This document shows, in pieces, positions 39,371 through 64,000 of a stretch of DNA of 64,000 nt. Made by a program: the position numbers and the translations under genes. Location of the stretch: positions 62,001-126,000 of the forward strand of contig NW_023501123.1 of NCBI RefSeq assembly GCF_014066305.1. Direction: 5' to 3'. The notes beneath the pieces are model-generated. The model worked only from the letters and a program-made list of their open reading frames with translations, did no database searches and had not been told where the DNA came from. Position 1 is the stretch's first letter. The number at the start of each line of letters is the position of its first letter. This DNA is from Letharia columbiana (taxonomy: Eukaryota; Ascomycota; Lecanoromycetes; Lecanorales; Parmeliaceae).

Positions 39371-39384
39371 AAAGGGGGGGGTAA

Positions 39385-39566
39385 TATCACGATTTTAATA
39401 ATCTTACTAACCTTACTTGTGTTATAGCCTAATTGGGCTTAGCGTGCTAAGGCCTTTCGGCCTTTCTATCTTACTATAAAGCCTACACTTGTAATAATCC
39501 TACATAGATAGTATTCTATTCATACTACAATACAGAGTTACCACACACACCATTGAGTCCCTGACA
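39385..39566 (+). repeat. right LTR of outer element
   Basis: Preceded by polypurine tract AAAGGGGGGG (from 39371) and ending TGACA. It is less RIP-mutated than the left copy and marks an abrupt return to normal base composition. Confidence 0.9.
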
Positions 39567-39599
39567 ACAATGGTGGAAAGGTCCCTTGCGGTCGTCAAG

Positions 39600-41718: not shown

Positions 41719-41845
41719 GCAGCGGCGGTGGAAATCCTCAATCCTCACACACAAATACAGTTGCATGCAGATAGATGGATATATACCCAGCAATCGGTTC
41801 CCGTATTTTCGCAACGAGAAGATTTCGATTCGGGCCGTGTTTCAA

Positions 41846-43526: not shown

Positions 43527-44463
43527 TCAATAGGTCCTGGTGCGGATCGTTGTCTTGCTCGTCTGCGGATTCTTCGATTCCAAAAACTTCTGGACGGCAA
43601 GAATCAATCCATCACCACATTTTCTATCTGCGACAAGTTCGCAGGTATCTAGCGTCCCTACGAAAGGGACCAGATACTGTACCCAGCTCTTCTCATGGAT
43701 TGCATCCAGATAGCTTTGGGGACAAGGCCGTCTGAGGTCTGAAAAAGTCGAAGCACAGGAGATGCCCATTGTAAGCTGCTTCAGCTCTAGATTCTGGCGC
43801 ATATAGGTGCATGCCGCCTTGAGAAACATGCCGCCTGCACTATCTGATAAGTCATCTGGAAAATGGAGTGGGAGACGAATCTTTTTGATGAGGCTTCGAG
43901 AAACCTGAGGCCGGTCTTTGAGGAACGATATGATAAGCGAGTGGTGGGGAAAGAAGAAGCAATTCTCGGAGTAGAAAACTTGGCGTGCCTCTGAGTAGGT
44001 TTGTCGATCCAGCGACAAGATAGCCGGGCGTATGTTCCGGGAGCAAACACGATACGTCCCCAAGTCTCCAAAACGCGATGGGTCGGTAGCGATAAGGTGA
44101 CTTCTGACTAGTCGCAGGATTTCCCATCCAGGCCATGAAGAGCCTTCCTTTACTGATATAGTGTTCTCAGGAGCGTGTAAGAGGTATCGATAGATTCGAA
44201 CTCGCAACTCGGCTGGTAGGTTGAGGAATGGAAAGGTGGGTAATGTATCTTCGTCCTTGTTGCCAGATCTGCAGCTTCATTAGAAAAGGGGCAATGTTAT
44301 TGGGACATAGTATCATGGGGCACAGTCAGGTGGACACTCACACGAGGCTTGCTGAAGCATGGCTCTCACTGTCCTTCGACCTGGGAATGACACTTCCATT
44401 GCTCAATCCGAGGGCAGAGGTGCGAGTAGCATTGGCAGTGGAGACCTCGGTGAAATCAGACAT
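43527..44463 (-). CDS. 2EXR/F-box-like domain protein
   Basis: Two exons, 44463-44342 and 44268-43527, joined by a 73-nt GT-AG intron in phase 2, give 287 residues. After a Ser/Thr-rich N-terminus the sequence FPFLNLPAELRVRIYRYLL is the F-box-like/2EXR opening seen in very many fungal proteins. It is followed by LDRQTYSEARQVFYSENCF, the usual second block. The rest (SRSLIKKIRLPLHFPDDL, LELKQLTMGI) fits the C-terminal part of that class. Function is unknown; members are assumed to be adaptors for protein binding or ubiquitin ligases. No lesion is seen, in contrast to the F-box pseudogene at 24.4-25.6 kb. Confidence 0.8.
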
Positions 44464-47400
44464 CGCTGAGTAGAAAGTAGCTGGAGTGTGGTAGCTTCTC
44501 CCTGTGTTGCTTGAATGGGTCTATCGTTGATTGACGAATTCACAATTCCGATGCAACGAAGAGGTGAGACAGTAGTGAGTGTGGGCTATGTGATGTTAGT
44601 ATATTCCAAACGGAGATCGTCGTGAGGTGAAGGGTGGTTGATAGCACTGACGCTGACTTTCTTGACGTCAATCTGGCGTCCGAAGACTACCCGAAAGAAG
44701 TCGATGTGAGGTGGTGTCGGTGTGGTTGGCGCAGTGCTGCTGTAATGCCAGCGATGCCAAGAAGGGTCCCACGGACACTAGTCTCCATATAGAGCTAGCG
44801 CTAATGTTCCCTTCCCTTCTGTGTAGGCGAAACAAACACCAACTGCAAAATGAATCTCGTTGAAGACGATCAGCGTAGCCTAGCACTCCGCTTTTGGAAA
44901 AGAAACAAGTCTGAGTCTGCGGTGCCCCTGGGCTGGATCTTTTTCGATTGGCTTTGGAGATCATCGGATGCCCCTCATAAAACTCCAATCCTTGGCCCGG
45001 TTCCTCTCCCTGGCTTCAATGCTCGGGGGATCTTTCAATTCTCTAGACGACCAGAACCTACAATTTGAACTCTCGACAGGAAGACGCTCGCTTTGTACTG
45101 GTTTGTCATCCGGTCATCTCCTCACAACTCCACAAGACCTTCCAGCACTCACATTCAGCAAAATTGAGCATGGCTTCTAGCATGAGGGAAACCGAGTACC
45201 GTATACATGCAAGTTCCATCGCTGGGGGCGAACATCGAGAAGCACCAGCTTTGAGTGAAGAGCTGGTGGGTAGAGGCATTGAGGAAAATGAGGATACCCG
45301 GCTACATCTCTCATCGTCAAGGGCAACCATGCGACGGGTAATGCCACAATACCGGATGGCGCAGCGAGTCAGAGCAGTGCCTGTATCGCCGCGTCGATGA
45401 GGCTTTGGAAAGGAAAAGGTGGAAAGGAGACACAGGAAGGCGCCGTACCGCGAGATCTGTGCCAACAATGGATATCGACGCAGACTTCTCGGGGGCGCTC
45501 ACGGAACATCACATGCAATTATTAGCCAGAAAAAGCCATTTGAAAGAGAGGGGATGCCCCCCGAGCAAGTAGCTGCATAAGGGAATGGGTGGTAGTGATG
45601 GCTTGGAAGACACCATCAGTTCGAAGCCACCTAGATTTTCTCCTCTTCTGTATAGCCAAATTTCGCCATGAAGAGGCCGTGTGTACCGAGCGAAGAGCTC
45701 GATAATAGCGACCCATCACTTCTGACACCTTGACCAATGTGATGCGGTCAGACCTTCGAGTACGGCACGGACGTTGCGCCGATGCCTTACGCATATCTTG
45801 CATTGCGCACATGCACGGGGACAAAGCCCTCATCTGCATGGAGAAGACATTATCTTATTTCGTTCACGGAAATCTCAATTCCCAAGATCGACAAGCCTTC
45901 CGTGGTTGAGCTTTTGAAGCCAGCCATCCTGCGCAGTGCCAACCTGTGGCTGTGAAGCTCCCTGCGTAAATGATGGTGGACAAAAGCACTGGAATTTCAG
46001 CGCGAACAACACTCCAGCCAACCAGGGGCCCCTTTCGGTCGTTATATGGTTGGTGGCCCGGATATGGCAGCATACACCGTTGTGCTGAGCCTCCGACGCA
46101 CAGGAAAAAGGTCCGAAAAGCGGGAAGCGGGAGGCGGGGAAATTTTCGAATCAAAATCTTCACAGTCCAAGAATTTCGCTTCCACAATTCCCAGCGGCCG
46201 GGTCTGCCCTGGCCCCTCGGTCGCTTTCTCTTGTGGGCTTACGCCTCATGATTCATGACTTTTACTGAGCGTCTTTTGCTGTGGAGGTGTGAAGTTGGAA
46301 AGCAGCGATTGGAAGAGTGTCATTGGTGCCTTGAAATGCTCCGAACAGTTTGTACGAGGCTACTGTTGGACCAGGACCCCCTGCCTGCCTGTGTGAGCCT
46401 GCGTTGGAAATTCTCTCGCAGCAACTGTCATTAGTACACAACTTAATACCCGTTTGTGGTAAAGGTAGAATCCACTTGGGCGATTTGAGGGAAAGAAGCT
46501 TTTCCTTATCACCTGCGCATCCAGAGTAGGTGCACTGGTTTTGATGCGCAAACGAGACAGTACCGTAGGGTGGCTAGCTGGCACCTCCTCCTTCTTAATG
46601 AGGAAGTTGAAGGGACTATTTCCTCATGCAGAAGGAAATGAAGGGAACACATGAGGACTGGGGAAGACTACGGTATCAGCTATTCAGGGACGGGGATAAA
46701 ACAGGAGAATGGAGAATGGAGAATGATGGCCATTAATTCATCATAGCGTCGAAGCCAATATGGGGGGAAACAATAGCGCTCCAATCAATCTAAGCGACAT
46801 TTTCATGAGTGTACTTTAGACGCTAGGGTACAGCCAGCAGGCCACAGCGGACCTAAGCCCGGCCCGGAAAGAAGCCGAAAGAAAGTCAGCCGAAGGGCCA
46901 ATTATGAGGGGCACTAGGGAAGCACTAATGGGAAGGAGGGAAGGGTACGGAGTAAGTAGGACTAGATGACTGATGGCCAAAACACCAGGCAATTCAGGAT
47001 TCTAGAGTCAGGGACCCCTGCATCGCCATGCAGCTGCCATGCGACACGGGGCAAGTACTCATACCTAGCACAAATAATTATCCGCTTATCTTGCCAAGTA
47101 CCTTACTCACTTTGAGCTTCTTCTTTTTAGCTTCTTCTTCATCCTGTTGATCCCAGGATGAAGGATGGAGCGCTTCCTCCCAAAATGATCCACTTGACAC
47201 TCGGGCTCATGACACAAACAACCCCTGCTGACATGTTACTGGTCCGGTAAGAAAGGGAAAGGAAAGATAAGGAAAAATTTAGGGAAATTCAAGAGATGAA
47301 GATGCTAATTAAGTACGTGTCAATCTTACACACTACCTGACTACCCATCTTCTTTACCCCTGAGTCGTTTCCTGAATGGCGCGTCTCATTGGACCTCGAT

Positions 47401-47763
47401 TACGTCCCGTGTGGAAGCTAACCGCACTTGCATCTCAGGCCAGTCAAGCCATCCATCTCAATTTTCGCTAATGGCCCGCAACTCTGCTGAATTGCTCCCG
47501 TCCTCCACTCCTCCTCACTGCCTCACTTTTCTTCCTTCCTTCACTACGACGCACACCATCGTTGACATCCCCTCTTTCCCTTTTCATTTCCTTCCCTCAC
47601 CTAGGCAGTATTCGCAAAGGCGGCTGCTGTGACCGGAGAATGTGATAGCAACAACGGAATGAAAATACACTGTAAGTCGGAAATTTCTACTAAACGCAGC
47701 TTCCTTCAAAAATCAACAGCTAACCGTGCAAACTCCTCTACAGAACACCGAGCACATCCGGAT
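44464..47763. other. long region without a resolved gene
   Basis: I find no family signature. The best candidate is a plus-strand frame at 45065-45400 (111 codons, hydrophilic), and minus frames at 45106-45468 and 45522-45839 are of similar length, all unsupported. The final part (about 47600-47763) holds the permease 5' leader, where GTAAGT at 47672 and a CTAACC...CAG ending at 47743 look like a leader intron. Confidence 0.4.
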
Positions 47764-49954
47764 ATGCCTTCCTCCGAGGTCAATTTCAAGATCCAGGATG
47801 AAGGGCGTCTGGCAGAATTGGGATACACGCAGGAGTTGAGGCGAGAATGGAGTCTGTTGCACAACTTCGGCGCATCCTTTTCCATCATTGTGAGCGAACA
47901 CTCCACCAGCAATACACCAACGCACCTTTGCTAATGCTTGCTCACCCTTCAGAGTGTGGTGACCGGGATCACGACGTACGAAAAACACTACATTGCCTGC
48001 CGTGGAAATTGAACTGACCATGTTCAAGTCTCTTCGCCTATGGCCTCAACACAGGTGGGCCCGGCGTCATGACCGTTGGGTGGATCATCGTCAGCATGTT
48101 CAGTATGAACGAACCATTCTGTCATGCCTGCTCCTGGACTGACCACCCGGTAGCACTCATCATTGGCGCCTGCATGGCCGAGATCCTCTCCTCAATCCCT
48201 ACCTCCGGCGGCCCCTACTTCTGGGCCTACATGCTCGCTCCCCAACACAATGCCCCCTTCTTCGCCTGGATCACTGGCTGGTAAGAAGCCACCGCCTCCA
48301 CAGTGCTCATCCCCATCGTTGACCCGATTTCATGTAGGTTCAACCTTTTGGGACAGATAGCCGTCACCACCGGGATAGACTTCGGGTTGGCAAACCTAAT
48401 CTCCACCACGGCCCAAGTCAGTAATGGTTACCACGCTTCGTCCGGGAAGACTTTGGGCATACTCGCGGTGGTGCTGGTGTCGCATGTCCTCATCAACCTG
48501 TTCAGTGTGCGCACTTTACGGTACATGATCTACACCTCCATTGTCTTGAATACCCTGGGGGTGTCATGTCTGGCCATCGCAGTCCTTGCAAAGGCACCGA
48601 CGCACCAATCTGCAAAGTTCGTCTTTTCCACCTTCTACGATGGCACGGGATTGCCGGGTCAGGACGGGTGGAGCATACGAGCGTCTCCGGCATATGTGGC
48701 CGCCGTCGGAGTCCTGATGTCGCAGTACACCATTTTGGGCTTTGATGCTTCAGCCCATCTGTGTGAGGAGACGAGGAAAGCCGTCAGGGATGCTCCGTTG
48801 GGGTTGCTTTCGGCGATTGCAGGGTCGTCTGTGATTGGATTCTTTTTGATCGTCGCTCTGCTATTTTCGATTCAGGACTTCCAGGCTGTCAGAACCAGCC
48901 CGCTACCAGTGTTGAAAATCTTGATGGATGCATGTGGTGAAGGAGGTGGATTGGTGCTCATGGTCCTGATCATGCTTTGCGTCTGGCACTGCGGTCTTTT
49001 CAGCCTGGTCCGTAACCCACCCTTTCCCTCTCACACTCACGCAACCCCGTGCCCCAATAACGGAACTCAACTGCGCCGCACTAACACTGCCAGACGTCCA
49101 ACTCCCGCATGATGTTCGCCTTCGCCCGTGACGGCGGCATTCCGCACCGACTGCACATCATCGACCGCGGCTTCCACTCCCCGATCCGCACCGTCCTCTT
49201 CGGCGCCGGCTGTTCCTTCCTCCTCGCTCTCCCGTCCCTCGGCTCCACCGTCGCGTTCGACGGCACGACTTCCATCGCCACGATCGGCCTCTACCTATCC
49301 TACGGCATCCCCATCGCCATGGGCCTCGCGTACCCACGCAATTTCAAACGCGGGCCGTTCAACCTCGGCTCCGCATCCAAGCCCCTCGCCACCGTCGCCT
49401 GTCTCTGGATTGCCTTCATCACTATCGTGTTCTGCCTGCCGGCGGAAAACCCGGTTACGCAACAGACGCTCAACTACACGCCCGTGGCCCTGGCGGTGGT
49501 AGGCGTCTTCGCCTTCGGCTCGTGGTTCCTATGGGCGAGACATTGGTTCACGGGGCGGTGTAGGCATCATTGCAGGATCTGCATTCGGCAGTTGGACTTC
49601 CTGGGCGAGGAGATGGTGTACAGATCCGACACCGTGGACAGCGATGGCCATCAACGGCTGAAGAGTAACGAGGGCACCAACGACGGCTTTCAGCCCAGTG
49701 ATCCCGATTTCAGGAAAAGAGGGGAAAGTAGAGGCGGGTTGAAGAAGGCGGGTGATCAGTAAGTGCATTCTTCTTCCGTGCTAACCAATTCATCAATCCA
49801 TTCATCCATCCATTCATTCAATCAACCATGGCATCGCCACCACCGACGCAAGGGCTAACGAGCGGTACGTCCGAACAGGAAAATCTCCGTCGGGAGGGAA
49901 TTCGAAGTCTACTCCGCTCCCGCGAGAGAATACGAAGAAGTGGGCGAAATGTAA
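47764..49954 (+). CDS. amino acid/GABA-type permease (APC superfamily)
   Basis: Six exons: 47764-47889, 47953-47975, 48029-48280, 48338-49007, 49094-49758 and 49879-49954. All are GT-AG and in phase, giving 603 residues. Family marks are the N-terminal LGYTQELRREWSLLHNFGASF, the TM1 region SVVTGITTLFAYGLNTGGPG, EILSSIPTSGGPYFWAYML, and about twelve hydrophobic spans. Close relatives are fungal GABA, choline or polyamine permeases (Uga4/Hnm1-like); substrate cannot be told. I extended the gene past an in-frame TAA at 49760. GTAAGTG there is a strong donor, the downstream CTAAC and CAG at 49878 are a good acceptor, and the new 25-codon tail (KISVGREFEVYSAP..) is protein-like. If that intron is retained, the protein is 21-25 residues shorter. 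Plasma membrane location is inferred. Confidence 0.88.
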
Positions 49955-50214
49955 CATAACATAAATGGAAATCAAATCAAATCAAATCAAATCAAAACAA
50001 ATCAAACCATCGGCGGCGATTGGAACCGGGGATGTATGTACAGGGTTCATGTATCCATGGGGACGTGAAGTGAGTGAGTGAGTGAGTGAGGGTTGGTAGG
50101 TAGCTGTAGGAGTAGGAGTAGAGTACGAGGGACTCGTTGGAGTGGGCGGTGGTGGGTGGAGTTGATATGATACCCATGCATGCGTCTATCTATTTATCTA
50201 TCTGTTTATCTATC

Positions 50215-50400
50215 TATCTAGGAAGGAAGGAGAGAAAGAAAGGAAGGAAGGAAAGAAGGGAAGAAGGGAAGAACGGAAGAAAAATGGAAAAATGGAAAGA
50301 AGGAAATCAAGAAGGAAAGAAGGAAAGAAAGAAAGAAGGAAGGAAAGAAGGAGAGAAGAAAAGAGAGAAAGAAGGAAAGAAGGAAAGAAGGAAAGAAAAG
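50215..50400. repeat. polypurine GGAA/GAAA microsatellite
   Basis: Around 185 bases contain almost only A and G on the plus strand, built of GGAA, GAAA and AAGG units, preceded by a TCTA repeat (about 50186-50219). Such mirror-like purine tracts can form triplex DNA. Confidence 0.9.
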
Positions 50401-50584
50401 ATATTCAATCCACTCATGCACACGACCAGGATTGAATTCTTCACTCGATATCACCCATTCGCCATTCGCTACTTCCCATTTCCTATTTCCCAATCTCAAA
50501 TGTCAATCTCAAATCTCAAGTTTTGCCTCTGCGTCTAATTCAGGACGGGTGTGGGCGGCTGCGTCTTTTGTTGTATATCTATCT

Positions 50585-50647
50585 ACGCATCTATCTTACT
50601 CTTATTCTTATTCTTATTCTTATTCTTATTATATCTATTCATCTATC

Positions 50648-50681
<34 letters not shown>

Positions 50682-50745
50682 TATCATCATCATCACCATC
50701 ATCACCATCACCATCACCATCACCATCACCATCATCACCATCGGG
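50585..50745. repeat. compound TTCTTA / TTA / CATCAC microsatellite
   Basis: TCTTAT units, then TTA units (about 50648-50680), then ATCACC units run without a break. The frames reading poly-Ile, poly-Tyr or poly-His across it are artefacts. Confidence 0.9.
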
Positions 50746-51894
50746 ATTGAAGCTTATAATACTATTGTGTTGAAAGACTACCAAGTGTCTCCGTTCCGTT
50801 CACGCACTCGCTACCGTCCGACCGGACTGAGGAGGGGAGGAAGGAGGTAGGTTGGGCGGTTTAAAGAAGATTAGGTAAGTGCAGGGCGTGCCCGGAATTG
50901 AGAGTGAGTGAGAGTGCGAGTGAGGGGACTTTTGACGGCCTGGGCGGTTGGATGGGTGGGTGGGTGGGGGATTGTGGATGATGGGATGGGATGGGATGGG
51001 GTAGGTTAGGTTGGTAGGAGGGGCAGGGGTTAGGGGTGAGGGATGGGGGGTTGGTAGGAGGGAGGAGGGGGGAGGGTTGTGTGTTTGGAGAGTTGGAGAG
51101 GTTGGTGAGTTTAGGATTGGTGCATGGGTGGGTATAGAGCGGGCTTTGAAATGAGGCAGGTGGGTGGGTTGGGTGGGCGAAAAAACCCCAAATCCGGGTA
51201 CCGGTTCTACCACCGACGTGAGGGCTACGGGCAGAACGATCGAGGGGGGCCAAGTCATCAAACAACAACAACAACAACAACAGTGCGAAGGATGTGGAAA
51301 AGCTTCTACTCATGCGTGGGCGAGCGTGGATGGGATCGGATCGAGCGAATCCGTTTCTCACAAACGTCGTGTTGTCGGGATGGGATGTCGGTGACGGGTT
51401 CGAAAGTGCCCACTTGTTCTGCAGTGGACAGCACCGGTGAAGCCCTAACCCTACTCTCGGGAGGTGACCCTACAGCGGAACTGTGCATGAATTGAACTGT
51501 GCATGAATTGAGCTCTGGGGACTTTTTATCACTCGGACGTGATAGGGGCAATAGGCCCGAAGCTGGAAATCGAGGTGCGTGCCGGAACACTTCCACCCAA
51601 GCGCAAACCCTTTCAGGCGGGAGATGTTGGGGCTGGCAGGTGCAGGATTTCCGGTGCCGACCTCGATAAGGTAGGTAGTTAGTGGTTGCGGGCTGGGGTG
51701 AGATGTGTAGGAGGGGCGGGCTGTGGGGTTTATATGGTGGGTAGACGTAGGTACGAGTGCCTTAGAAGGTGGAGAAAACCTACTATGCTAACCCGACTAG
51801 GGAGGGAGGGAGGGTTTGATCTGGTCTGACTGACTGACGGCAATGGATGTCTGAGCTAGCTCTGCGAGAACGACTGCTGACGGGGAAGGAGCTG

Positions 51895-53032
51895 TGTTGG
51901 AATTCAGCATCTCAGCCCTATTGTGCTTGGCAACAACTATCCCCTTCCTTGAGTCCGGGTGGACCACGCTAGCAGGGGCCAGATGTAGGGATTATTATTG
52001 GTCACATCACTGCTTCTAACCGATTTCATCTTGCTTATTAAGATTTTTCTTTGGTAAACGGTGATTGGACAAATGATAATCCCTACATCTGGCCCCTGCT
52101 AGCGTGGTCCACCCGGACTCAAGGAAGGGGATAAGTAGCAGTACTCCTCCATAGAAAAACAACAAGCCGTCATCAATTTCATCAGGTTATGAGCCCGGTT
52201 TGACGAAAATCGTCACCACGACGGCTTCCTTCGTAAGGGATTACTAAAGGTATTCTTACGTCGTATTAATTCAGCCACAGAGTAGAGGTCCCGGTCGACG
52301 TCCGCTGCGTTAACACAAGTTGCTACTCATACCTCTACGGCTTCTCAGCGCAATTTTCACAAACTCTACGCATATCCTACGATACGATATCGACCACAAC
52401 ACTGTTAAAGGCAGAAGATTAAGGGGCTTAAAGGCTTAAGCTAGGATATAGGGGAGGAAAGACGGAAGCGTATCAGACAAGGCAGTTAGGGGAGGACAGT
52501 TTAGAGGGAGGCACGAAGGAACAGACACCCTCTCGAAGCCTACGAATCAGTCACTCGATATACCCTACAACACGCCACAAAGCCCTCTACGGAGATATTC
52601 GATAAGGCTCTAGGGGAGGACTCGATAGTTTAAAAAGATGTCAGATGCCAGTGTCAGATGCCAGTGCCAGAGCCAACGATGCCCGTGCCCGATGCCAGTG
52701 CCAGAAGCCCGTACATTTCGAAGTCGAACTAGTCACTCGATACCCTACAGCAAGTCATCTCGGAAAGCCCTACTACGGTAGACACACTCACATCTAAAGC
52801 ACTCTTCCCGATTTCCCTACACGAGCGAGGTTTACGGGTTTAAGGAGGCTTCAAAGCAGGATACAGGCAGTTGATTTATGGAGCTACAGCTACAGTCCCA
52901 GGGGGAAATAAATAGGTCTTCGCTGCAGGGGGAGTGTTGGAATTCAGCATCTCAGCCCTGTTATGCTTGGCAACAACTATAAGTAGCAGTACTCCTCCAT
53001 AGAAAAACAACAAGCCGTCATCAATTTCATCA
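51895..53032 (+). mobile_element. TRIM-like non-autonomous LTR element, copy 1
   Basis: 98-bp LTR (TGTTGGAATTCAGC...TTTCATCA) at 52935-53032; the left LTR 51895-52184 is the same LTR with a 190-bp MITE inside. Immediately after the left LTR comes GGTTATGAGCCCGG, complementary to the anticodon arm of initiator tRNA-Met, the half-molecule primer site used by many Copia elements. GCAGGGGGAG before the right LTR is the polypurine tract. The 750-bp interior has no long frame. Flanks are AGCTG (51890-51894) and GTACT (53033-53037), not matching each other but matching copy 2 crosswise. Confidence 0.88.
51941..52130. mobile_element. MITE with perfect 54-bp terminal inverted repeats
   Basis: 51941-51994 (CCCCTTCCTTGAGTCCGGGT...) is exactly reverse-complementary to 52077-52130. 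It interrupts the left LTR of TRIM copy 1, whose other three related LTRs lack it. The empty sites read AACTATAAGTAG or GACTATAAGTAG; the filled site shows AT on both sides, so a 2-bp AT duplication (or none, if the element is one base longer each side). No coding capacity. Confidence 0.92.
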
Positions 53033-53848
53033 GTACTTAGTCTCTTTGAAATGTACCTTCCTCATATGCTCTTCAAGAAGGTCTTCTCTCGTGAAACCGT
53101 GTGATCCAATACGCCCGCACCACTCGTACTTACAATCAAGTAGCTCGTCTGGTGCAGGGGGAATGTGCACAACCATATGACTTTTAAGATCGTGAGCTCG
53201 AGAACTTATGTGGCCGCAGTTTGGGTGTAGACAGGGGTACTCGGAAGGCGATGAAGGAATTGGGGTGCTGAATAAGATGTCGTCAGCGAATGCAGAAAAT
53301 TGTCAGAGATGTAGGGTGGAGAGGCAATGCTTCCCACTGAGTGCACCAACGAAGAGAGTAGTATCCTACCTGAGCTTTCGCTCCTTCACGTATTTTGAAG
53401 AGCTTACATGAGCAGTATGAACGACCTCAATACCAGGACGGTCTGCTTTCTGTGGGCCCAGCTGGCGACTGGGAACATAGCTGTGGACTGGGTAACTTTG
53501 GACTGGATAGCTTTGGACTGGGTAGGTCTGGACTGGATAGCTCTGTTGTGGTTGTGGGCTAGCCACTGAAGGGACTCTGGTAGCATAGCCAGAATTAGAG
53601 TTGTCCCTGGAGTGATAGCCAGCGTTGAGAGGAGGAGGCCTGAGGGTTTGATGCCCATGTGGGTATAGGTATCCACTGGTGGATTGCTGTTGAAGATAGT
53701 AATTGGGAGTACCGTAAGTGTGGGAAGAACTGGATGAGAAGCCCAAGGCTTGGCCGCAATGGCCGCCGTTAGGATCATTCTCAGTTCCGCTTGAAGGATC
53801 ATTTGCACTCGTAGGGCCACTGTTCCTCGTATAGGGCATATTGGGCAA
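53030..53848 (-). pseudogene. N-terminal half of a C2H2 zinc-finger protein gene, cut by TRIM/inversion
   Basis: Exons 53848-53370 and 53267-53030, joined by a 102-nt intron with a GCTGAC branch point, encode 238 residues. The N-terminal 160 are Ser/Tyr/Pro/Gln-rich with four near-repeats of SYPVQ. Exon 2 then encodes two zinc-finger-like units: YPCLHPNCGHISSRAHDLK with a following H-x3-H, and CKYEWCGRIGSHGFTREDL with H-x4-H. The reading frame reaches HFKETKY, whose last codons lie in the 5-bp duplication AGTAC, and then stops at a TGA contributed by the TRIM LTR (53030-53032). The rest of the gene is at 58755-59887 on the other strand. The upstream ATG at 53848 may not be the true start; an earlier exon in 53.9-54.6 kb is possible. 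Confidence 0.82.
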
Positions 53849-54612
53849 GGGATATGCTTAGAAGCTAAAGCACGAGACGAGAAGTCGCGATATGAGCTGG
53901 AAATGTTCATTATATTAATGAAAATGCGCCGCCAGGGCATGTATTTTCTTTCCAACGCTCTGAAGATCACATTGATAGATTGATGGTCATGGGATGGGCG
54001 GAGACATAATAATTGGATGGAAGGGGTAGGTTGGAAGAGAGGTCAGCAGTGATATACCGACATGGCGGGGTTCTCCGAGACCATATAGTCGTTGCAGAGA
54101 ATGAGGCTGTTCTTCCTGCGCCCTGCTACGGTGGCTCGGCGATCACCGTGCATGAGGCTACATAGAGCTTGCATCTCGCATCGTCCAATCGCGATGCAGC
54201 ACCGTGAACTTGTTTCTTCTTCCACTTCTCGCTTTGAAGCGCGTAGGTAGCACACGATCTCTGGTGATGCGCGGATTCTGAGATGAAGAGAGTGGCGGAG
54301 ACATTTGACCGCGGTGCTGCGCACGGCAAGGCTGCGCTCATCCTCGCCAATCGTTGTATTGGGAATGTAATATCCGCGATGCTTGCACGACCTCGCATCT
54401 AGACGATACGATTGGTCAATAACATCTGATAAACACGAACGCATAAATCTTCTCCTCGTGCTGAAAGGACTTGTTCTGTTAAAACGATATGTATGATGGT
54501 CATGAAGGATGGTTGAAAGAGAGCAGGAAGTATAGCAGGTCAGCCCTACGGCAATGCCGCCCAAGGCTCTGCAGCCGACTTTTTGTATCGAAGGCAAGCA
54601 GTAGCAACAGCC
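53849..54612. other. spacer between zinc-finger half and reductase gene
   Basis: A minus-strand frame of 184 codons (54043-54597) is open here but has no recognisable domain; it could be an upstream exon of the zinc-finger gene or chance. I do not call it. Confidence 0.4.
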
Positions 54613-55923
54613 TCATCCCTCATTTTCACTACCCCCCTCCTTCTCTCCCCTCCAGCTCCGGCGTATCTCCAAAACAAACCTTCGCCATAACCCCCGGATA
54701 CCGATCCCCACTCGTCTCACAACCCTCCACCGCCTCCCTATCTCCCTCGCCTGCCCCTCACTCAACACCACCCGCAAACTCCCCAAATTCTCCTCAAGAT
54801 ACTTCGCCTTCTTCGTCCCCGGAATCGGAATCACATCCGGCCCCTGCTCCATCAACCACGCCAGCGTTAATTGCCCCGTCGTACAACCTTTCATCTTCGC
54901 GATGGCGGAAAGCTTGTCAACGAGCTCGAGATTCTTGGGGAAATTCTCCGCCGAGAACCGAGGCATGTTGCGCCTCCAATCGCCCGGCCCGAAGTCCTCG
55001 GCGCTTTTGTACTGGCCTGTAAGCACCCCCCGGCCGAGCGGGCTGTAGGCTACGGTCGCTACGCCCAGCTCGCGACACGTGGCGAGCAGGTTTGTGCCGG
55101 AGGCGTTTTCGATGTCGAGGGTGAAGGGGGAGTATTCGATTTGGACGGCGTGGATGGGGTGGATGGTCATGGCGCGGCGGAGGGTGGTGGAGGAGCATTC
55201 CGAAAGGCCGAGGTAGCGCACTTTGCCCGAGTGGACGGCGGAGGCCATGGTAGAGACGATGGTTTCGACGGGGACTTTGCCGTCGAAACGGTGGCTGGAG
55301 GGTTGTCAGTGCTGGATGGGAAAAGGCTTGGATTGGGGGAAGAGGGAGATACGAACCAGTACCAGAGGTCAACATGGTCGGTTTGCAGTCTTTCCAGACT
55401 CCCATCGATGGCTTTTCGTATGTACTCCGGCTCATTGGAGAAAATGCGTGTACCGTCTGCTAAGCCCTTGACTGCGAATTTGGTTGCCAGAAATACCTTA
55501 TCCCTCTCTCAGCATCACATACTCTCAAGATTTAGAACGAAGGTAGAGCATACCTGATCACGCTTTCCAGTCCTTTTGAACCACTTCCCAATCAGCTCTT
55601 CGTTGTCCCCATAGCCCTACACCAGATCAGCTTACGACTCTCGAACATAGCAAACATTCAATCCCGATTCATACCTCAGCAGTATCCCAGAACGTACAGC
55701 CCATCTCAAACACCTTATCCAGAAACGCTAACCGCTCTTCCTCGTCTCCAGCATCGCCGTAGAGCGTAGCTACTCATGCATCATATCATTAGCTCGCCCA
55801 TTCTCATATCGGAGAAATCGGACACGGTAATTCCCTACAACTCAGCCCCATAGCCCCATACCCCAACGCACTAACCCACGGCCCATCCTTGCCCAATTGG
55901 CGCGTGGGAAGTTGTGCAGCCAT
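54613..55923 (-). CDS. aldo/keto reductase with frameshifted C-terminus
   Basis: NADP-dependent oxidoreductase of the aldo/keto reductase fold (AKR13-like, related to YakC/pyridoxal reductase types). Exons 55923-55839, 55772-55675, 55616-55554, 55496-55357 and 55294-54613 splice in phase to 355 residues. Visible marks are PWVSALGYGAMGLS, FWDTAEGYGDNEELIGKW (catalytic Asp and Tyr), LATKFAV (Lys), a His in YCHRFDGKVPVE, then VRYLGLSECS, AVQIEYSPFTLD, VAYSPLGRGVLTG and PIPGTKKAKYLEEN. Near 54760 the expected ending (EAVEGCETSGDRYPG...) is found one frame away, so a single-base loss replaces the last ~30 residues by an Arg-rich tail that runs to 54613. This may be a real lesion or a sequencing error; the catalytic core is intact. 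The gene lies inside the inverted segment. Confidence 0.85.
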
Positions 55924-56183
55924 TGCGGTGCGCTGCCGTAGTTATTGTTAAACGCTGATCGATCGGCAGCACGTTAGAGTTAGATTGGATAGGATTAAGT
56001 GCGTAAGTAAGTACATATAAGATGGACTTGTTTTGAAAGAAAGAAACATTCCGTCTGTTGTAGTTAAGTAACGGTGCACCCGTTCGGCGTTAAGCTTAAG
56101 TACCCCAAACAAATGATTCCTTACAAATCCATAAGGTACCCCGTCTTACCAGTACAGGTATTGATCTGTAAGTAAGCCATAGC
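55924..56183. other. spacer, reductase promoter
   Basis: No gene. Presumed promoter of the aldo/keto reductase. Confidence 0.4.
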
Positions 56184-57092
56184 CTGAGGTGATATTGGCG
56201 TGTGCAGAAAACGTTGGAATACTTGGCACTGAGAAAATCACACACACCACCAAAAGTAGTACTGAATAGATGAATCTTCTCCCATATCGCATTCTACCAC
56301 CTTCCTCATCATATTTGAAGCTCCTGTATATCTCGCTTAGCCAATTCCTGTTGTTTCGAAATGCCCCTCGCAACGATCGATAGAAGGGGCTTACCTCCGC
56401 CTATTCGGTCCAGAATCGTTCGTTTGTTACTCCTTTGCGAGGTCCGATATCTGCCTCCCTACTCACCAGATGTCAATCCCATCGAGCTCTCTTTCAGCGT
56501 CTTGAAGGCACGGGTTCGAAGATACTTTTACGAGGTATGGCCTCAGTTCCAAGGGAACTTTGTTGACTTCTTACGATATGCCGTGATGAGGAGTCGGTGC
56601 GATCTCTTTCCGAGGGAGCATTTCAAGCATAGTGCTATGGGAGGCTATATCTTTGAGGCGGACATGAGGGAGTCAAATAGAGCTCTTAATGAGTGCGATA
56701 TTCAGATAGATTTTGAAGACTAAACTACATTTGCTGCTGCTGCTACTGCCCCAGAGTCATTAAGGCCTTCGCCTGTCGCCATTAAGGCTTAAATACCTTC
56801 AAGTCTGCCTTAAAGCCTCTGACTAAAGCATCAGGAACCCCCAATTGTAAAGCAACACGATACATAAGGGGGGGACCCCTGACTGCGTCGATTGGGAGGC
56901 ATTTTGAAACACTAAGGCAAGATATTAAGGATCGGCTAAGCGAGATATATAGGAGCTTCAAATATGATGAGGAAGGTGGTAGAATGCGATATGAGAGAAG
57001 ATTCATCTATTCAGTACTACTTTTGGTGGTGTGTGTGTGATTTTCTCAGTGCCAAGTATTCCAACGTTTTCTGCACACGCTAATATTGCACC
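56184..57092. mobile_element. remnant of a Tc1/mariner-like element bounded by ~150-bp inverted arms
   Basis: The left arm (about 56190-56345) and right arm (about 56935-57087) are near-identical inverted copies: GCGTGTGCAGAAAACGTTGG on one side, its complement on the other. The differences are few. Between them lies the end of a DDE transposase on the plus strand. Each arm could encode LSEIYRSFKYDEEGG reading outward, so the arms may be duplicated internal sequence rather than true termini. Confidence 0.65.
56361..56723 (+). pseudogene. C-terminal fragment of a Tc1/mariner (DDE_3) transposase
   Basis: 120 codons contain LPPYSPDVNPIELSFSVLK, the hallmark around the last catalytic acidic residue (NPIE) of Tc1/mariner transposases, followed by VRRYFYEVWPQF. 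The first two catalytic Asp and the DNA-binding domain are absent, so the fragment cannot be active. It is short for the family (usually 340-550 residues). Confidence 0.82.
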
Positions 57093-57863
57093 GATTCGGT
57101 AATTTTTCCCGGCCTTAACCCTCGAAAAAGTTACCAACTCATACCCCAAAACACGGATTCGTTACCGAGTGATACCCTAAATTCTGGCGGCGGCGTATGG
57201 AAATGTAACGCCAGGGTACGAGTTCGCAAACCATATCGAGCGAAGACAGTAATGACAGCACGTTGATTCGGTAAATTGCAGGCAGAGGCAGAATAGCCAG
57301 TTGCAACCAACCCTAATGACTGACGATTGGATATCGAGCCGAACCTCATCGCTCTCCTCTCCATTCTCGCGTGCATCCCGGAATCCATACCATCCGCGCG
57401 GACGGCGCTACAAGCCTACATATCTTGGCAGCAGCGGTACAATTGGTGCGCTCCATACACACAAAGTAGGTGGCACGGCTTGTGTAGCTCTGTCCAGACG
57501 AGCCGCGTCAGTGCGTACGTATTACCCATAGACGCATCTACTAATCTCACAGATGTCCAGAAAATCGGAAGAACAGAAAGACCTACCGTATCGTTGTGCG
57601 ATTATGGGATAATGACTACTCTTTCACCTGATTCCTTTCTTACCTTTCCTCCCTTCTCCGTCTCTTCATCTCCCCACCCAGCCCATGTTGCATAAAACCT
57701 CGAATAAACAATCGACACCACACCAGCACATACCTAGCGCTAATCACTTCATTAACGGACTTCGTACTCTCATAACAACACAGATAGTCCCTTCCTCGCT
57801 TCATATACATACAAACATACATACATACATACATACATACATCACACAGCCACGCACTCAGCT
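57093..57863. other. spacer with dispersed repeat and CATA microsatellite
   Basis: No gene. 57093-57290 contains sequence related to the palindrome at 15595-15715 (ATACCCCAAAAC, TTACCGAGTGATACCCTAAA, and GATTCGGTAAATTGC near 57265). A CATA microsatellite lies at about 57808-57840. Short frames elsewhere are unsupported. Confidence 0.5.
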
Positions 57864-58754
57864 TGATGAAATTGATGACGGCTTATTGTTTTTCTATGGA
57901 GGAGTACTGCTACTTATAGTCTATGCCAAGCATATCAGGGCTGAGTTGCTGAATTCCAACACTCCCCCTGCAGCGAAGACCTATTTGCTCCCCCCTGGGA
58001 CTGTAGCTGTAGCTCCATAAATCAATTGCCTGTGTCCTGCTTTAAAGCCTCCTTAAACCCGTAAACCTCGCTCGTGTAGGGAAACCGGGAAGAGTGCTTT
58101 GGATGTGAGTGTGCCTACCGTAGTAGGGCTTTCCGAGATGACTTGCTGTAGGGTATATCGAGTGACTGATTCGTAGGCTTCGAGAGGGTGTCTGTTCCTT
58201 CGTGTCTCTAAACTGTCCTCTCCTAGAGCCTTGTCGAATGCCTTCGTAGAGGACTTTGTGGCGTGTTGTAGGGTATATCGAGTGACTAATTCGTAAGCTT
58301 CGAGATGTACGGGCTTCTGGCACTGGCATCGGGCACAGGCGTCGTTGGCTCTGGCACTGGCATCTGACACTGGCATCTGACATCTTTCTAACTATCGAGT
58401 CCTCCCCTAGCTGCCTTGTCTGGTGCGCTTCCACTTTCCTCCTCTAAATTCTAGCCCTAAGCCCCCCAATCTTCTGCCTTTAACAGTGCTGTGGTCGATA
58501 TCGTATCGTAGGATCTGTGAGGTATGGAATTGCGCTGAAAAAGCCGTAGAGGTAATAAGTAGCAACTTGTGTTAACGCAGCGGACGTCGACCGGGACCTC
58601 TATGGCTGAATTGTACGACGTAAGAATACCTTTAGTAATCCCTTACGAAGGAAGCCGTCGTGGTGACGAGTTTCGTCAAACCGGGCTCATAACCTGATGA
58701 AATTGATGACGGCTTGTTGTTTTTTCTATGTGGCTGAGTTGCTGAATTCCAACA
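57864..58754 (-). mobile_element. TRIM-like non-autonomous LTR element, copy 2 (inverted)
   Basis: Same family as copy 1, reversed. The LTR at 57864-57961 is the full 98 bp. The other at 58695-58754 has lost 38 bp internally (ends TGATGAAATT...TTCCAACA kept). The complement of the primer site (CCGGGCTCATAACC) abuts it at 58681-58694. The interior is about 733 bp and roughly 90% like copy 1 where compared by eye. Flanks are CAGCT (57859-57863) and AGTAC (58755-58759). Confidence 0.88.
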
Positions 58755-59887
58755 AGTACCCTAGAGCGAGTAGACGGGGCAATGGACAAGAAAGTAGAAG
58801 AAAGAGCCCGAGACGTGGATCTAAGGTAGCAGCGGCTGCGACACACTGTTCGGTCGTTTCAGAAAATCAAAGCATGCTTGTAAAGATCAAACCAGAAAGC
58901 ACAAGATCTAGGGCAAGAGAGGAGAGTGTGCTCCCGTCAGGCAACCCTCAGGCTCCAGGACTGTCAGCGGAAGCTGCAGCACGAATTGCGAATTCGCAAC
59001 CCCGGAAAATCTGTGAAAACCCGCCAGATCAAGAGACTGCTGGGTTGAAGGTCTCTATTCCGGATCCAGATTCGGTCGTGCCGCAAGCTCTGGACGCTAA
59101 CAACGTCGGACCTATCGATAAGATGGCTAATGCATCGGACGATGTAGAAATGGAGTCGCATGAAGCAAACGAGTTGATTTCTTCCTCGGATGATAAAAGT
59201 GTGCATCAGCGACTGAAAGACGGTATCCCCGATGACCCTGGATCTATCGCTGAGTGCGAACATAGGCATTCAACAGGAACGGTTCTCGACGGAAACGAGG
59301 GTTTGATAGCTTCAAAGTTTCACCACTCGATCAACGCCAAGCTGGCACTCATAGAATCTCAGGTGCTTGAGGCTTTGTCAGCGGGCGAAGCAGGCCAGTA
59401 CCGCGCTTCGATCAAGATTCAGTGGAACGTCTTGGGTTTCATGAATGACCAATTCCGTGAGGATGACTTTCCAAATTCAGCTTTGAGTCCCGTTGTTACA
59501 ATAAGTGGGTCTGCACAGCACGCTCAAGCGACGACCTGCTCAGATTATATACAACAAAACTGGCCTGCACATGGTTCGAAAGTTCTGGATGCCCTACAGG
59601 CTGCTTTGGATAGCCCTTCCCACACGTCACAGTCTAAAATTTGTGATCGTATTGATGACGGAAATATTTCTAGAGACGGTGCACCCTCCAGTCATGCTGA
59701 GCTTGAGTTCCAAGTCACTCGCGGTTCTATGTCTCTCTACATCACATCCGGAAATCCAGACATCGTTGTGGACGTTGTCCAGCAGCTGGCAAGGATGGGG
59801 GCCGCACTCCGAACGGCCGGACTTGGTCGAATTGAATATTGTGATTCAAAGCTGGAGGCAGTCCTGAGACCTATGATATGGCTCTGA
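58755..59887 (+). pseudogene. C-terminal half of the split C2H2 zinc-finger protein gene
   Basis: 376 codons are open from the TRIM edge to TAG-side stop at 59887. The first codons (AAG TAC CCT) continue exactly the frame of the N-terminal half across AGTAC. The start is basic (RASRRGNGQESRRKSPRRG), the middle acidic and Ser-rich. The last 180 residues form a conserved-looking domain: KIQWNVLGFMNDQFREDDF, SPVVTISGSAQHAQATTC, QNWPAHGSKVLDALQAALDS, IVVDVVQQLARMGAAL. I recall similar C-terminal domains in fungal hypothetical proteins but cannot name it. An ATG at 58697 lies within the TRIM LTR, so a chimeric protein with ~20 element-derived residues could in theory be made. No internal lesion is visible in this half, which argues for a recent break. 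Confidence 0.8.
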
Positions 59888-60330
59888 CAGAGACGAAATC
59901 GAATGAAGAGCCATTGACAGGTGCAAAACAGGTGGCTATATAGCTCGTACTGGACACCTGTCCCCAACCCCTTGCCGGGGTACCAACAGGGGTACCAACA
60001 AGGGTACCAACAGGGCCAACGGCTGATCAAACAGCCATTAACGCTATGGCCTCATAATGGATCTACTAACCCACAGTCCCACTGTTGCGAAAAGGATAAG
60101 GATTACCTTGCCGTCGGCGTTTCAATGCTAAGGATGTTCTACGCAAAAGCCGGACACCGCCAGGATCAGCAATACCTAACCTCTGCGAAGCTCCAATGGC
60201 ATCGAGGCTCCATGCTTTTTGAGCCATGCGCTGGCGTCAGTTCGAATCGCTGCAAGTGCGACCGTTTACAGCAGGTATACCACGACTCGTACAAAATAAT
60301 CGGGCATAGAATCCCACACGGCAAGCTCGA
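59868..60330 (-). pseudogene. decayed relative of the membrane protein gene at 14.3-15.4 kb
   Basis: Plus-strand sequence here aligns by eye with 14905-15260: AGAGACGAAATCGAATGAAG / AGAGACGAGTTCGAAAGAAG, CTATATAGC, ACACCTGTCCCCAACCCC / ACACCTGTCTCCTACCCC, CCACAGTCCCACTGTTGCGAA / CCCCAGTCCCACGGTGGCGAA. The minus strand would read SQQWDCGLV where the other copy reads SPPWDWGLV, but stops and a GGGTACCAACA tandem repeat break the frame. It is a relic, and shows that the long plus frame crossing it (from 59921) is not coding in this part. Confidence 0.65.
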
Positions 60331-60416
60331 AGCCAACGGTTGTGTGGTATTTGGTCAAGCCCATCACCCACTCAAGCTCCCCCAAAGCGTCGCCTGGAGA
60401 CAAAACACGGTCCATA

Positions 60417-61021
60417 TGTTACCCAACACTTCCATTCAGGATGGGAAAACCACCAAGAAGACTTCAACAGAAGATGATGGCTCACTATCACCGTCTCCTC
60501 CAACATCGGTCTCCCCTGAACGTGAAGAAGTCAATGGAAATGCAATCTGGAGCCCACAACGACGGCCGTCGCCACTGAGTTTCACTGACCATCTGGTGCA
60601 AGAAAAAGCGATTGCATCAGAGAGAAGACGTAAGACTCCACACATGCAGGCGTCGAGTTTCGACATGTGCAAGGGACCCAACGACAGCAATGACCAAATA
60701 TCGTTGTCTGACGACTGTGCAACATGTCCCCTGGAATATCAGTCGATACTCAGATATGATAATCTGTCGAACGGACAATATTCGGGATGCAGAGAGACTA
60801 TCCACGCTCCCAAAGCTGAAGACGCTCCACCACATGCCCCAAAGACTCGAAGTCACAAAGCGAAGATCAAAAACTATAGCCATCGTGGTGGCTGTTCATG
60901 TACGACTTGTTCCACAGGATCTTTTGAGCCACCAGAAAGCATGGAGCTTGTCAACACCGTCAAGGGCATTCGAAGGAATTCAACGAATATAGCAAAAATG
61001 CCAAACAGACAGCTAGTGTGA
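60417..61021 (+). CDS. hypothetical protein (3' part of a long open frame)
   Basis: The plus strand stays open from 59921 to 61021 (366 codons). The first third overlaps the membrane-protein relic and is doubtful; the last 200 codons look more like protein (EDDGSLSPSPPTSVSPEREE, HRGGCSCTTCSTGSFEPPES). They are Ser/Pro/Lys-rich and probably disordered. I do not recognise it. It could be a separate small gene starting at the ATG near 60417, or a 3' exon of the split zinc-finger gene. Confidence is low because no conserved domain is visible. Confidence 0.35.
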
Positions 61022-61232
61022 TCTTGCAGTGTCTTTCAGAGCACCCATCACGAGTCGGATCTTCTCAGCAAGCTTTTAAAAAATCAAAACGAGGGACTTC
61101 TGTTTGGAACTTCCGCTCGAAATGTCTATCAAGGGACGGTGGCGGCAGCACAGTGCTTATTGATTAGCCATACTGTACATTGAAGACGCCAAATTCACGT
61201 CAGCCTCAAACCAAACATCTCAATCTCCAATC

Positions 61233-61796
61233 TCATTCGAGCCCAAGCAGCGCCAATCGCGCCGTAACATGCACCTCCGTCGGATCCCTAACCGGATCAT
61301 AATACCTCCTACACTCCCTCTCCCAGCCTTGCAACAAACCCACCCAACGCCTCCCACACTCCTCCCTCTGCCTCCCCAAATCCTCTTCCTCCCTCTGCCT
61401 CCCAGTCCGGAAATACGCCCGCCAAAAATTACACTCGATCTCCGTGCGCAAATGCTCCGCTTCCGCTTCCATCGCCAGCAACGATTCGCGGATCTCTCCG
61501 CGCAGCGCTGCCGGGATGGGGTCTCCGGCGAGCGCGAGGGCTTTTGCCAGATAGGAGAGAGGGTGCAGGAAAGGATCCATAAGCCATGGCGTTAGGGAGT
61601 TGTTGGCCGATAAGGTGCGCAGATGCCACAGGTCTGATTGGCGGCGGCAGAGGAGGTGGAAGAGGCTTGAGGAGATGCTGGCGAAGGATCTTTGCGGTGG
61701 TGGGGGTACGTTGAGAGATCTGATTGATAGTTGGTGGTTCATGTTGTTGGAACGATGGTCGCGATTTTCATTAGTGTAAAAGCTGAGTGTGGCCAA
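61233..61796 (-). CDS. hypothetical protein
   Basis: 187-codon minus frame; the more likely start is the second ATG (61742, MNHQLSIRSLNVPPPP). The sequence is helix-rich with Arg/Glu/Trp pattern (EAEAEHLRTEIECNFWRAYF, GRQREECGRRWVGLLQGW), suggesting a coiled or helical bundle. I do not recognise the family. A frame overlapping its 5' end (61771-62130) might be an upstream exon. Confidence 0.45.
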   Translation of the reverse strand: MATLSFYTNENRDHRSNNMNHQLSIRSLNVPPPPQRSFASISSSLFHLLCRRQSDLWHLRTLSANNSLTPWLMDPFLHPLSYLAKALALAGDPIPAALRGEIRESLLAMEAEAEHLRTEIECNFWRAYFRTGRQREEEDLGRQREECGRRWVGLLQGWERECRRYYDPVRDPTEVHVTARLALLGLE

Positions 61797-62562
61797 GGAA
61801 GAGAGACTGACTGCACATTTTATAGATCTTAGACGCAGTTAGAGTTGCATGAGGGGACCATTGCTCTTTGTCTTCATTGCAAACCAGGCTCTGGGTTCTC
61901 ACATGTTCCACCGTGTCTGAACGTTGTGCGCATTTTCTAAAGAGTTCCGGGACTGGGCAAACAAAGGTCGCAGTGACTGACACAGAACCAGAGACCTGCT
62001 TTCTCCACGCATGTCGGACACACTTGAAATATCTAGAATCGTCATAACAAGGTCCCTCTGCCAATGCAATGTCAAAGACGCTGATCTCCCCTTGAAAAGT
62101 CACGTTTCTTTGTAGCATCGGGTGATGCAAGCCCCACTGCCGTTAGTGAAGGCTTTGGGTGACCAGCGAGAAGTTAGGCAGACTGGTGGCATTGAGGATT
62201 TGCCACCGGAGACTACAGCAGAATTGGGTAGTTATCTGCCGAATGCCTAGTCTTCTTCGTCCCATGATGAACTCCAGCTCCACTCCACGGTCTAGTTCTA
62301 CAGGAGAAGCTAGGATCTTTTTTGCCGACCGTAGCACTCCGGGTTTGCAACAGCGCCTAAAGCGAGCCGCAATCTCTCCTTTCGCTTCTACGGGTCCTTC
62401 TCTAGCACCCAAATCTTGTTGATATCTGCGCTATAGCTTAGGCGCAGGATAATAGGCGCGACTGCTATTTGCTCCTGTGCAATTTCTTTCCTTTTCAAAG
62501 GCGCGCCTGCTGCGCTCGACCCTCTTCCCTCTTCAAAGTCTTCTGGGCTCACGTCTCTTTCG
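61797..62562. other. intergenic, no resolved gene
   Basis: Frames of about 90-120 codons on the minus strand (61771-62130, 62143-62412) lack recognisable features. The right end should contain the metalloprotease promoter. Confidence 0.4.
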
Positions 62563-63642
62563 ATGGGGCCATTAGCATGCATTAGCCAGGCTCTGAGCGT
62601 TTCCTTACTGATACAATGCAGCTGTGCTCTACCTCAACAAAGTAACGTTAGATCCTCGTTTCGTGGAGAAACATGGTTCTGACTTCTTAAGCAGCCCCGA
62701 ACGATATCACGAAAAGCAACGACTACACAATCCAGCACTGCAGTCTACTCGCCCCACAGGTCCAAAACGTGCTGGAAAGTCTCTACGATGTTCTACCACT
62801 GGCTATTCGGGAAACCCATTACGGGGTAACAAGTGCACCATATCAAGCGTTTTTCAAAAATTCGTATTACGAGACGGTTGTCCATGGGATATTGAGCAGG
62901 GTCACGATCGGAGTGCCACTTCGTCTGGATTTCGGCAAAGAATTGCTAGTGCCGAGTCTCGTCTGCGCATTGAAACCAGACACAGTGATCATTCACAAAG
63001 CAGGCCAAGAATTTGACATCTATGATATTTGCAAAGGAAATCCGACTTGGGCGCTCATGTACTACCCGAAAACACCGAACATCTTCATCTGCCCTCTTTT
63101 CTTCCTGATGCCGACACTGCCAGCCGTAGGGAATTGTCCAACTGTCAACGAGGCTACGAACCAATTCGAAGGAAACTTTACTGCTTTTTGGCAGTCGCAG
63201 ATGTACATGCTGCTGCATGAGATTGCTCATTTCTACATTGGCGTCACGGTTGAGGATAGCGTGGACGAAACCATGGATTGGAACTATGCGTTTTCGCTCT
63301 CGCCGATGAATGCGACTTCCAATGCGCTGAATTATGTTCTCTTTGTGGCCAGTAAGTGCATTTTCACCTGGAATGGTCGGTCTTATAAACGCTTAGTATC
63401 ACCTCGTCGCTGACGCTTACCATTTAGGCGTCGACAAAGGATGCAGAGACTATCCACAGGCAGATCAGCCGCAGTCTTTCGAAGGTCGGAAGCTTGGAAC
63501 GATGCTAGATCTGCTAAATACGTCTTCCCCAGACATCGTGGAAAGCCAGAGACTTGACTCTGTACGGGGTAGAGTGTCGCCGTATCATACCGATGCTACG
63601 AACCTAACGTTTGCGCCGAAGAATGAGACTTCCTTTAGATGA
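62563..63642 (+). CDS. secreted zinc metalloprotease, M35/deuterolysin-like
   Basis: Three exons, 62563-62641, 62695-63351 and 63428-63642, give 316 residues with in-phase GT-AG introns (the first with a CTGAC branch point). The start is chosen because it creates a signal peptide, MGPLACISQALSVSLLIQCS. The zinc-binding helix MLLHEIAHFYIG has His201-Glu202...His205. Downstream, a Tyr/Ala stretch (DWNYAFSLSP) and NALNYVLFVAS resemble the DxAYG...NADSYALFA block of the aspzincin (M35) group. Several N-glycosylation sequons are present (NFTAF, NATS, NLTF, NETS). The protein is probably secreted and degrades external protein or modifies the wall. An unresolved point is the third zinc ligand, which I cannot assign with certainty. 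Confidence 0.83.
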
Positions 63643-64000
63643 GAAACTCGTGGAATACGCGTGTGCGGTCCAAAGCATCTTAGGTTCGCGACACTTCTGC
63701 CCTGAGTATCGATGTAGCTGATGCAGATGCCGTCGCCTCTGTATATGTACATGTCATGGCCGGAGCGGAAAGAGAAAGGAGAGAGGAAATGCGCCCCATC
63801 GTAGGGTGGTATAGTATGAATTGTGAGCCATTGTAAGGTCACAGCATGTCCTGTGACAAAAAAAAGAGCGCTTACTCCGCTTGGTAGAGGGAACAGACTC
63901 CGAAAACATCTAGTTTGCTCAAATCTGATGTATTGGCCACGCGCTCCGCTCTGATTGCTCATCCTCCCGACAATATTTGACGGGAACCACTTCATGAGTT
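63643..64000. other. window end, no gene seen
   Basis: A minus-strand frame of 136 codons (63585-63995) overlaps the protease 3' end and has no recognisable domain. A gene entering from beyond the window cannot be excluded. Confidence 0.4.

Follow-up and report, generated by a model that had tools for sequence, protein, structure and literature searches.

Structure of the locus

The locus lies in a 64,000-nucleotide stretch of Letharia columbiana DNA (assembly GCF_014066305.1, contig NW_023501123.1, positions 62,001–126,000), which we call the window and in which all coordinates without a contig name are given. Two short elements that resemble terminal-repeat retrotransposons in miniature (TRIMs) stand there in opposite orientation on either side of a 4831 bp segment (53033–57863). 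This segment runs on the strand opposite to that of its neighbours, relative to contig C75 of the same assembly, which carries the locus a second time, and we analysed the origin of the arrangement. Within the segment lie an aldo/keto reductase gene (54659–55923, − strand; PF00248), which matches L. lupina HO133_003165 at 99% over amino acids 129–313, and a transposase relic (56192–57086) that has inverted ends and includes a DDE_3 fragment (56361–56720, + strand). The upstream, zinc-finger-like part of a split gene, which the inversion would have moved, occupies approximately 53034–53848 on the − strand. Its downstream part lies outside the segment at 58755–61018 on the + strand and matches amino acids 1–332 and 731–1039 of L. 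lupina HO133_003163; the two halves are thus on opposite strands and 5.7 kb apart. An earlier note, made from the sequence alone, had assigned an aldo/keto reductase, a transposase relic and half a zinc-finger gene to the segment. The first two are located within 53033–57863. The third statement is right for the upstream part, although the other half is not missing and continues from 58755 onward.

Copy 1 of the element (51895–53032, + strand) measures 1138 bp with a nested 192 bp insert that resembles a miniature inverted-repeat transposable element (MITE), and 946 bp without it. Its 5′, outer long terminal repeat (LTR), LTR A (51895–52184, + strand), consists of 98 bp plus this insert (51941–52132), which is palindromic with arms of about 78 bp that are 92% complementary. 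The insert is absent from the 3′, inner LTR B (52935–53032, + strand). Copy 2 (57864–58754, − strand) measures 891 bp and is bounded by the 3′, inner LTR C (57864–57961, − strand) and the 5′, outer LTR D (58695–58754, − strand), which has an internal deletion that leaves 60 bp. The LTRs are direct repeats of 98 bp that start with TGTTGG and end with ATCA, giving the TG...CA termini of a TRIM. A putative primer binding site, GGTTATGAGCCCGG, follows LTR A (52185–52198, + strand), and the motif GCAGGGGGAG precedes LTR B. In copy 2, which was the copy scanned, the two longest sense-strand open reading frames (130 and 107 amino acids) gave no Pfam match at E 0.1. TRIM is a fair name for these elements of about 0.89–0.95 kb.

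Crosswise target duplications

We compared the 5 bp flanks of the two elements, all read on the + strand. Copy 1 is flanked by AGCTG on the left (51890–51894) and by GTACT on the right (53033–53037), and its ends, read directly, are ...GGAGCTG / TGTTGG...TTCATCA / GTACTTAG. Copy 2 is flanked by CAGCT on the left (57859–57863) and by AGTAC on the right (58755–58759), with ends that read ...CTCAGCT / TGATGAAATT...AATTCCAACA / AGTACCCT. Within either copy, the two flanks match at 0 of 5 positions. Between the copies, they match at 5 of 5 positions twice: AGCTG and, inverted, CAGCT are the halves of target duplication 1, and AGTAC and, inverted, GTACT are the halves of target duplication 2. From the window's own 5-mer frequencies, both crosswise matches would arise by chance with a probability of 1.4e-6. 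The earlier note had described just this, two opposite TRIMs without duplications of their own and flanks that pair crosswise, and its figure of about one in a million for a chance match is close to ours.

A 5 bp target duplication is usually present in this element family. Both full-length copies that were read carry their own (GTACC in C12 and CACCA in C86). With automatically placed ends, 9 of 15 single LTRs match at 5 of 5 positions, although C143 and C74 among the 15 probably represent the same insertion; the six that fall short are C41 (3/5), C33 (2/5), C46 (2/5), C150 (4/5), C8:644k (3/5) and C2 (0/5). Further matching duplications flank the LTR at C8:711.9k (GCACC) and a solo LTR on C75 (GGAGG at either end, as judged by eye). 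The elements at C1:5k, C1:15k, C15, C28, C36 and C75:190k have an unclear or missing end and were left out of the scoring.

An un-inverted version without TRIMs

The inverted segment and its right and left flanks, used as separate queries, all matched contig C75. The alignment blocks C75:220141–225976 (−), 215818–220145 (+) and 209603–215820 (−) correspond to window 45.9–51.9, 53.0–57.9 and 58.8–64.0 kb, respectively, and in a base-level alignment their order and strands are those expected before an inversion. Read backwards, C75 runs through window 45935–51894, 57863–53037 reversed, 58755–59873 and 60091–64000, with a TRIM at neither site. The contig is colinear with the window only after the segment is flipped back, which supports the 4.8 kb inversion of 53033–57863 that the earlier note had claimed. 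That note had proposed a search for an un-inverted or a TRIM-free version, and C75 is both. Besides small gaps, C75 differs from the window in lacking the transposase relic, in having a solo LTR of its own and in its sequence at 59874–60090.

At site 1, C75 reads ...GACGGGGAAGG-AGCTG-AGTGCGTGGCTG..., where AGCTG occurs once (220141–220145) and 40 bp on each side are identical to the window flanks. The left flank of copy 1 continues here directly into the left flank of copy 2 in reversed form, and the empty site is perfect. The flanks of site 2 likewise adjoin on C75, with no TRIM between them. A paralog on C70 has GAGAGTGAGTACCCAAAG at the same point, which contains AGTAC and reads through as KESEYPK. 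The stretch C75:215816–215990 is a tandem duplication of about 100 bp of the zinc-finger-like sequence at the insertion site, with its units in different frames.

Continuity of the split gene

The two gene halves of the window, kept apart as separate pieces, were compared with 79 homologous proteins, which come from the 7994 candidates that share most words; two of them were also found in a separate search. Both halves are present in one chain in 20 of the 79, where the match to the upstream piece (within 53033–53299, − strand) precedes the match to the downstream piece (within 58757–59869, + strand) along the protein. In P0126, P0146 and P0170, for example, these matches adjoin at residue 48. 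Among the 79 homologues, the downstream piece is matched by 59 and the upstream piece by 20. The 59 proteins with no upstream match are uninformative, and some of them start downstream of the junction. One of these is HO133_003163, and L. lupina was rejected as an outgroup for the junction because this protein begins downstream of site 2. On C75, the frame stays open across site 2 for 635 residues. Because the homologues join both halves and the C75 frame is open across the site, the outer flanks of site 2 belong to one gene and the target of copy 2 lay inside it. It is extremely improbable that the crosswise pairing is a chance match and that no inversion took place: only ten base pairs are compared, but the chance value given above, the independent un-inverted and TRIM-free version and the 20 continuous proteins all stand against it.

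The family name of the split gene is uncertain. Scans gave no Pfam family for the downstream half, for the C75 protein P0123 or for the L. lupina protein P0124, and a precomputed PF28131 label stands on most of the homologue rows. The zinc-finger label derives from the C70 paralog, whose zf-H2C2_5 match is sub-threshold (E 0.044), and from PF00096 labels on two relatives. At 59874–60090, a 217 bp repeat (many copies, 78–97%) replaces about 1.19 kb of the gene body found in C75 and in HO133_003163 (amino acids 333–730). Judging from the sequence, this repeat adds a third lesion to the gene in the inverted haplotype.

Origin of the inversion

We consider it very probable that two TRIMs inserted in opposite orientation and that an ectopic homologous exchange between them then inverted 4831 bp. 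In one L. columbiana haplotype, one TRIM-like LTR retrotransposon would have landed at AGCTG, outside any recognised gene, and the other, oppositely oriented and 4.8 kb away, at AGTAC, where it interrupted the coding sequence of the zinc-finger-like gene. Ectopic exchange between the two elements, which most probably took place in their inner (3′) LTRs and close to the ends, would have inverted the segment, swapped the target duplications and put the gene halves on opposite strands. The second haplotype, represented by C75, would have retained the TRIM-free, un-inverted arrangement. The core of the interpretation in the earlier note is strongly supported, although its word 'proved' is too strong.

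Several observations weigh against this history. The empty site 2 on C75 is imperfect, with AGTGC instead of AGTAC and an extra tandem unit of about 100 bp just upstream. No haplotype with both TRIMs and without the inversion was seen in the assembly. Finally, the LTRs pair within the copies and not crosswise, the copies are not visibly chimeric, and the exchange has to be confined either to a tract of about 57 bp in the inner LTRs (35 + 21 identical bp around one difference) or to 15 bp.

Regarding the LTR pairing, LTR A and LTR B differ at 2 of 98 positions, compared with 8 of 98 between A and C and 6 of 98 between B and C, and A and B are mutually nearest among 31 LTRs. LTR D is uninformative, with 1 difference in 60 from C and 1 in 59 from A and from B. 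Within other copies, the two LTRs differ at 1 of 98 positions in C12 and in C86. The probability of at least 8 differences where 2 are expected is 0.001, with the caution that the AT-rich C36 shows 9 within one copy, so that 8 is not unheard of in the family. Four of the eight A–C differences are transversions, unlike C-to-T decay. A crossover in the middle of the elements would pair A with C and B with D. Since the observed partner of A is B, we rejected it as unlikely.

We infer that the exchange took place within the last 57 bp or so of the inner LTRs or within the first 15 bp of the outer ones, or that it was masked by conversion. Since the LTR pairs themselves are not exchanged, a crossover inside the elements, as the earlier note had it, holds only if it was close to the ends of the elements or if conversion came after it. 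An exchange within the terminal tract of the inner LTRs would leave no visible chimerism, and an alignment of eight copies, read by eye, gave nothing firm on chimerism of the internal region. The sole differences between A and B, at LTR nucleotides 26 and 29, both carry the alleles of LTR C. For two random substitutions, this coincidence has a probability of about 7e-4 (a post hoc estimate by hand, from 8 A–C differences among 294 possible changes). Nucleotides 26–29 look like a patch of conversion next to an exchange within the inner LTRs, and the inner LTRs are favoured as the exchange site because both A/B differences are alleles of C.

The pattern of the LTRs is also what would be predicted if two complementary DNAs (cDNAs) integrated crosswise at two nearby sites and the cut segment was rejoined in reverse, so that the inversion was made by integrase and not by homologous recombination. 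A single step would then give non-chimeric copies, exchanged 5 bp duplications and the inversion, and copy 1 would be coherent, as the pairing of A with B and the 8 differences between A and C indicate. Passages of Delprat et al. (2009; PMC2775673) treat chimeric copies as a recognised mark of recombination as opposed to aberrant insertion, there for a DNA transposon. However, crosswise integration needs two cDNAs and two sites simultaneously, and the C alleles that separate A from B point to an exchange at the DNA level between the inner LTRs. Among the literature matches listed, no title names crosswise integration by an LTR retrotransposon, which also counts against it, and we know of no described case. 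We regard this mechanism as unlikely; if it did operate here, the unexchanged LTR pair would be the trace of an inversion made by integrase.

Haplotypes and the assembly

In the history that we prefer, with homologous exchange between two inserted TRIMs, C75 is the second haplotype. The contig looks like a haplotype rather than a segmental duplication, which we favour less, because there is an end-to-end overlap between C75 and C88 and three further pairs of contigs match. The end of C75 matches C88:81514 and the end of C88 matches C75:183880 in the parts compared, and close matches link the compared pieces of C143/C74, C150/C8 and C53/C81 in this assembly of 52.2 Mb. The second version also extends beyond the locus, since C75:226504–232832 matches window 39568–45943 at 96%. 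Between C88:81514–142017 and C75:183880–238906, the identity is patchy, at 93–100% in the pieces compared, and stretches of 99.7–100% stand beside others with about 1.4% divergence. This may reflect either recombination between haplotypes or shared edges of the assembly graph. Outside the C75 match, two adjoining long repeats of about 4.1 and 3.4 kb, with many copies elsewhere at 82–88%, occupy 32000–39568.

We also considered whether the inversion suppresses recombination. This was rejected since the left flank is as diverged from C75 as the inverted segment, with 68 mismatches in 5149 columns of its largest aligned piece, compared with 53 in 3668 for the five largest pieces of the segment. 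The right flank is closer to C75, with 7 mismatches in 1119 columns and 10 in 3910.

According to passages of PMC10512270, the source assembly was made from whole thalli with Nanopore sequencing (McKenzie et al., 2020, as reported there), three Letharia genotypes are present and the L. columbiana reads hold both mating types. The L. columbiana thallus of that study itself is described there as haploid, so that several genotypes per thallus would not be the rule.

These circumstances bear on an assembly artefact, in which TRIMs with duplications of their own would surround an un-inverted segment whose middle was flipped by the assembler. The overlap of C75 and C88, end to end yet unmerged, indicates a complicated assembly graph here, and the three genotypes reported for the thallus also speak for an artefact. 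Inverted repeats are classic flip points of assemblies. However, the two elements are just 0.9–1.1 kb long, differ at 94 of 827 aligned letters and by indels, and have a longest exact shared run of 58 bp. Nanopore reads should span elements that short, and an assembler flip would need the same short terminal tract as the exchange. An artefact of this kind thus seems quite unlikely to us, and ectopic exchange between two inserted TRIMs is the history that we retain.

Further features of the element family and the segment

Genome-wide, the putative primer-binding 13-mer has 27 exact matches, compared with 1 for a reversed control. In the context of 14 of the 27 sites, many show a TG/TA-type, LTR-like start after it, and three are TRIM copies. 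The primer site may be that of tRNA-Met; ARAGORN recognised no tRNA gene at the 23 loci scanned of the 27 or, in a run with introns allowed, at any of the 27. A palindromic MITE-like insert interrupts both LTR A and a C8 LTR of another subtype (C8:711900–712310), in each case at the same CTAT/ATAAG point, which suggests target-specific insertion into the LTR of the TRIM. In the aldo/keto reductase gene, the window has a frameshift at about 54739 relative to L. lupina P0004 (amino acids 313/314), which is either a real lesion or a sequencing indel. The solo LTR on C75 (217665–217762) belongs to the same TRIM family and lies inside this gene, and P0005 (HO173_011751, 182 amino acids), the annotated protein of this region on a contig as long as C75, ends early.

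Comparison with known inversions

Inversions made by transposons are often inferred, but cases in which both arrangements, the empty sites and a broken gene are seen together are rare. At this locus, the two versions in the assembly allow a nearly base-by-base reading of the flip. The value of the case lies in the presence of the inverted version and its TRIM-free counterpart in one lichen thallus assembly and in the unusual pairing of the LTRs. It suggests that elements of about 0.9 kb that lie 4.8 kb apart can suffice to split a gene by inversion. Among the literature matches listed, no title or opening of an abstract names such an inversion in Letharia.

Passages of Delprat et al. (2009; PMC2775673) attribute the Drosophila buzzatii inversions 2z3, 2j and 2q7 to the element Galileo. 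As with Galileo 2z3, the Letharia locus has opposite copies at the breakpoints, exchanged target duplications and single target copies in the non-inverted chromosome, the last being exact at site 1 and imperfect at site 2 (a substitution and the tandem unit of about 100 bp). Unlike the Letharia elements, Galileo is described there as a DNA transposon with 7 bp duplications. Its 2z3 copies are reported as clearly chimeric, with terminal inverted repeats about 6% apart within a copy and more than 99% alike between copies, and the exchange was mapped to 141 bp in the middle of the element. In the same passages, the chimeric copies serve the authors to exclude a hybrid-insertion model. Copy 1 in Letharia shows the opposite, since its LTRs are alike within the copy and any exchange would lie near the element end.

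The Ty elements of yeast are autonomous and about 6 kb long. Inverted copies of these LTR retrotransposons recombine and invert the DNA between them, as a passage of PMC3532108 mentions, and the Letharia copies would have done likewise; unlike Ty, they are about 0.9 kb long and have no recognised protein domain. In size and coding content, they resemble PbTRIM of the harvester ant, which passages of PMC3532108 present as a family of small noncoding LTR elements with solo LTRs and short target duplications. PbTRIM measures 480–781 bp, with LTRs of 152–184 bp and 4 bp duplications, compared with about 890–950 bp, LTRs of 98 bp and 5 bp duplications in Letharia. In summary, the type of event is already known from Galileo and yeast Ty, and the Letharia locus would be a well-resolved new case of it.

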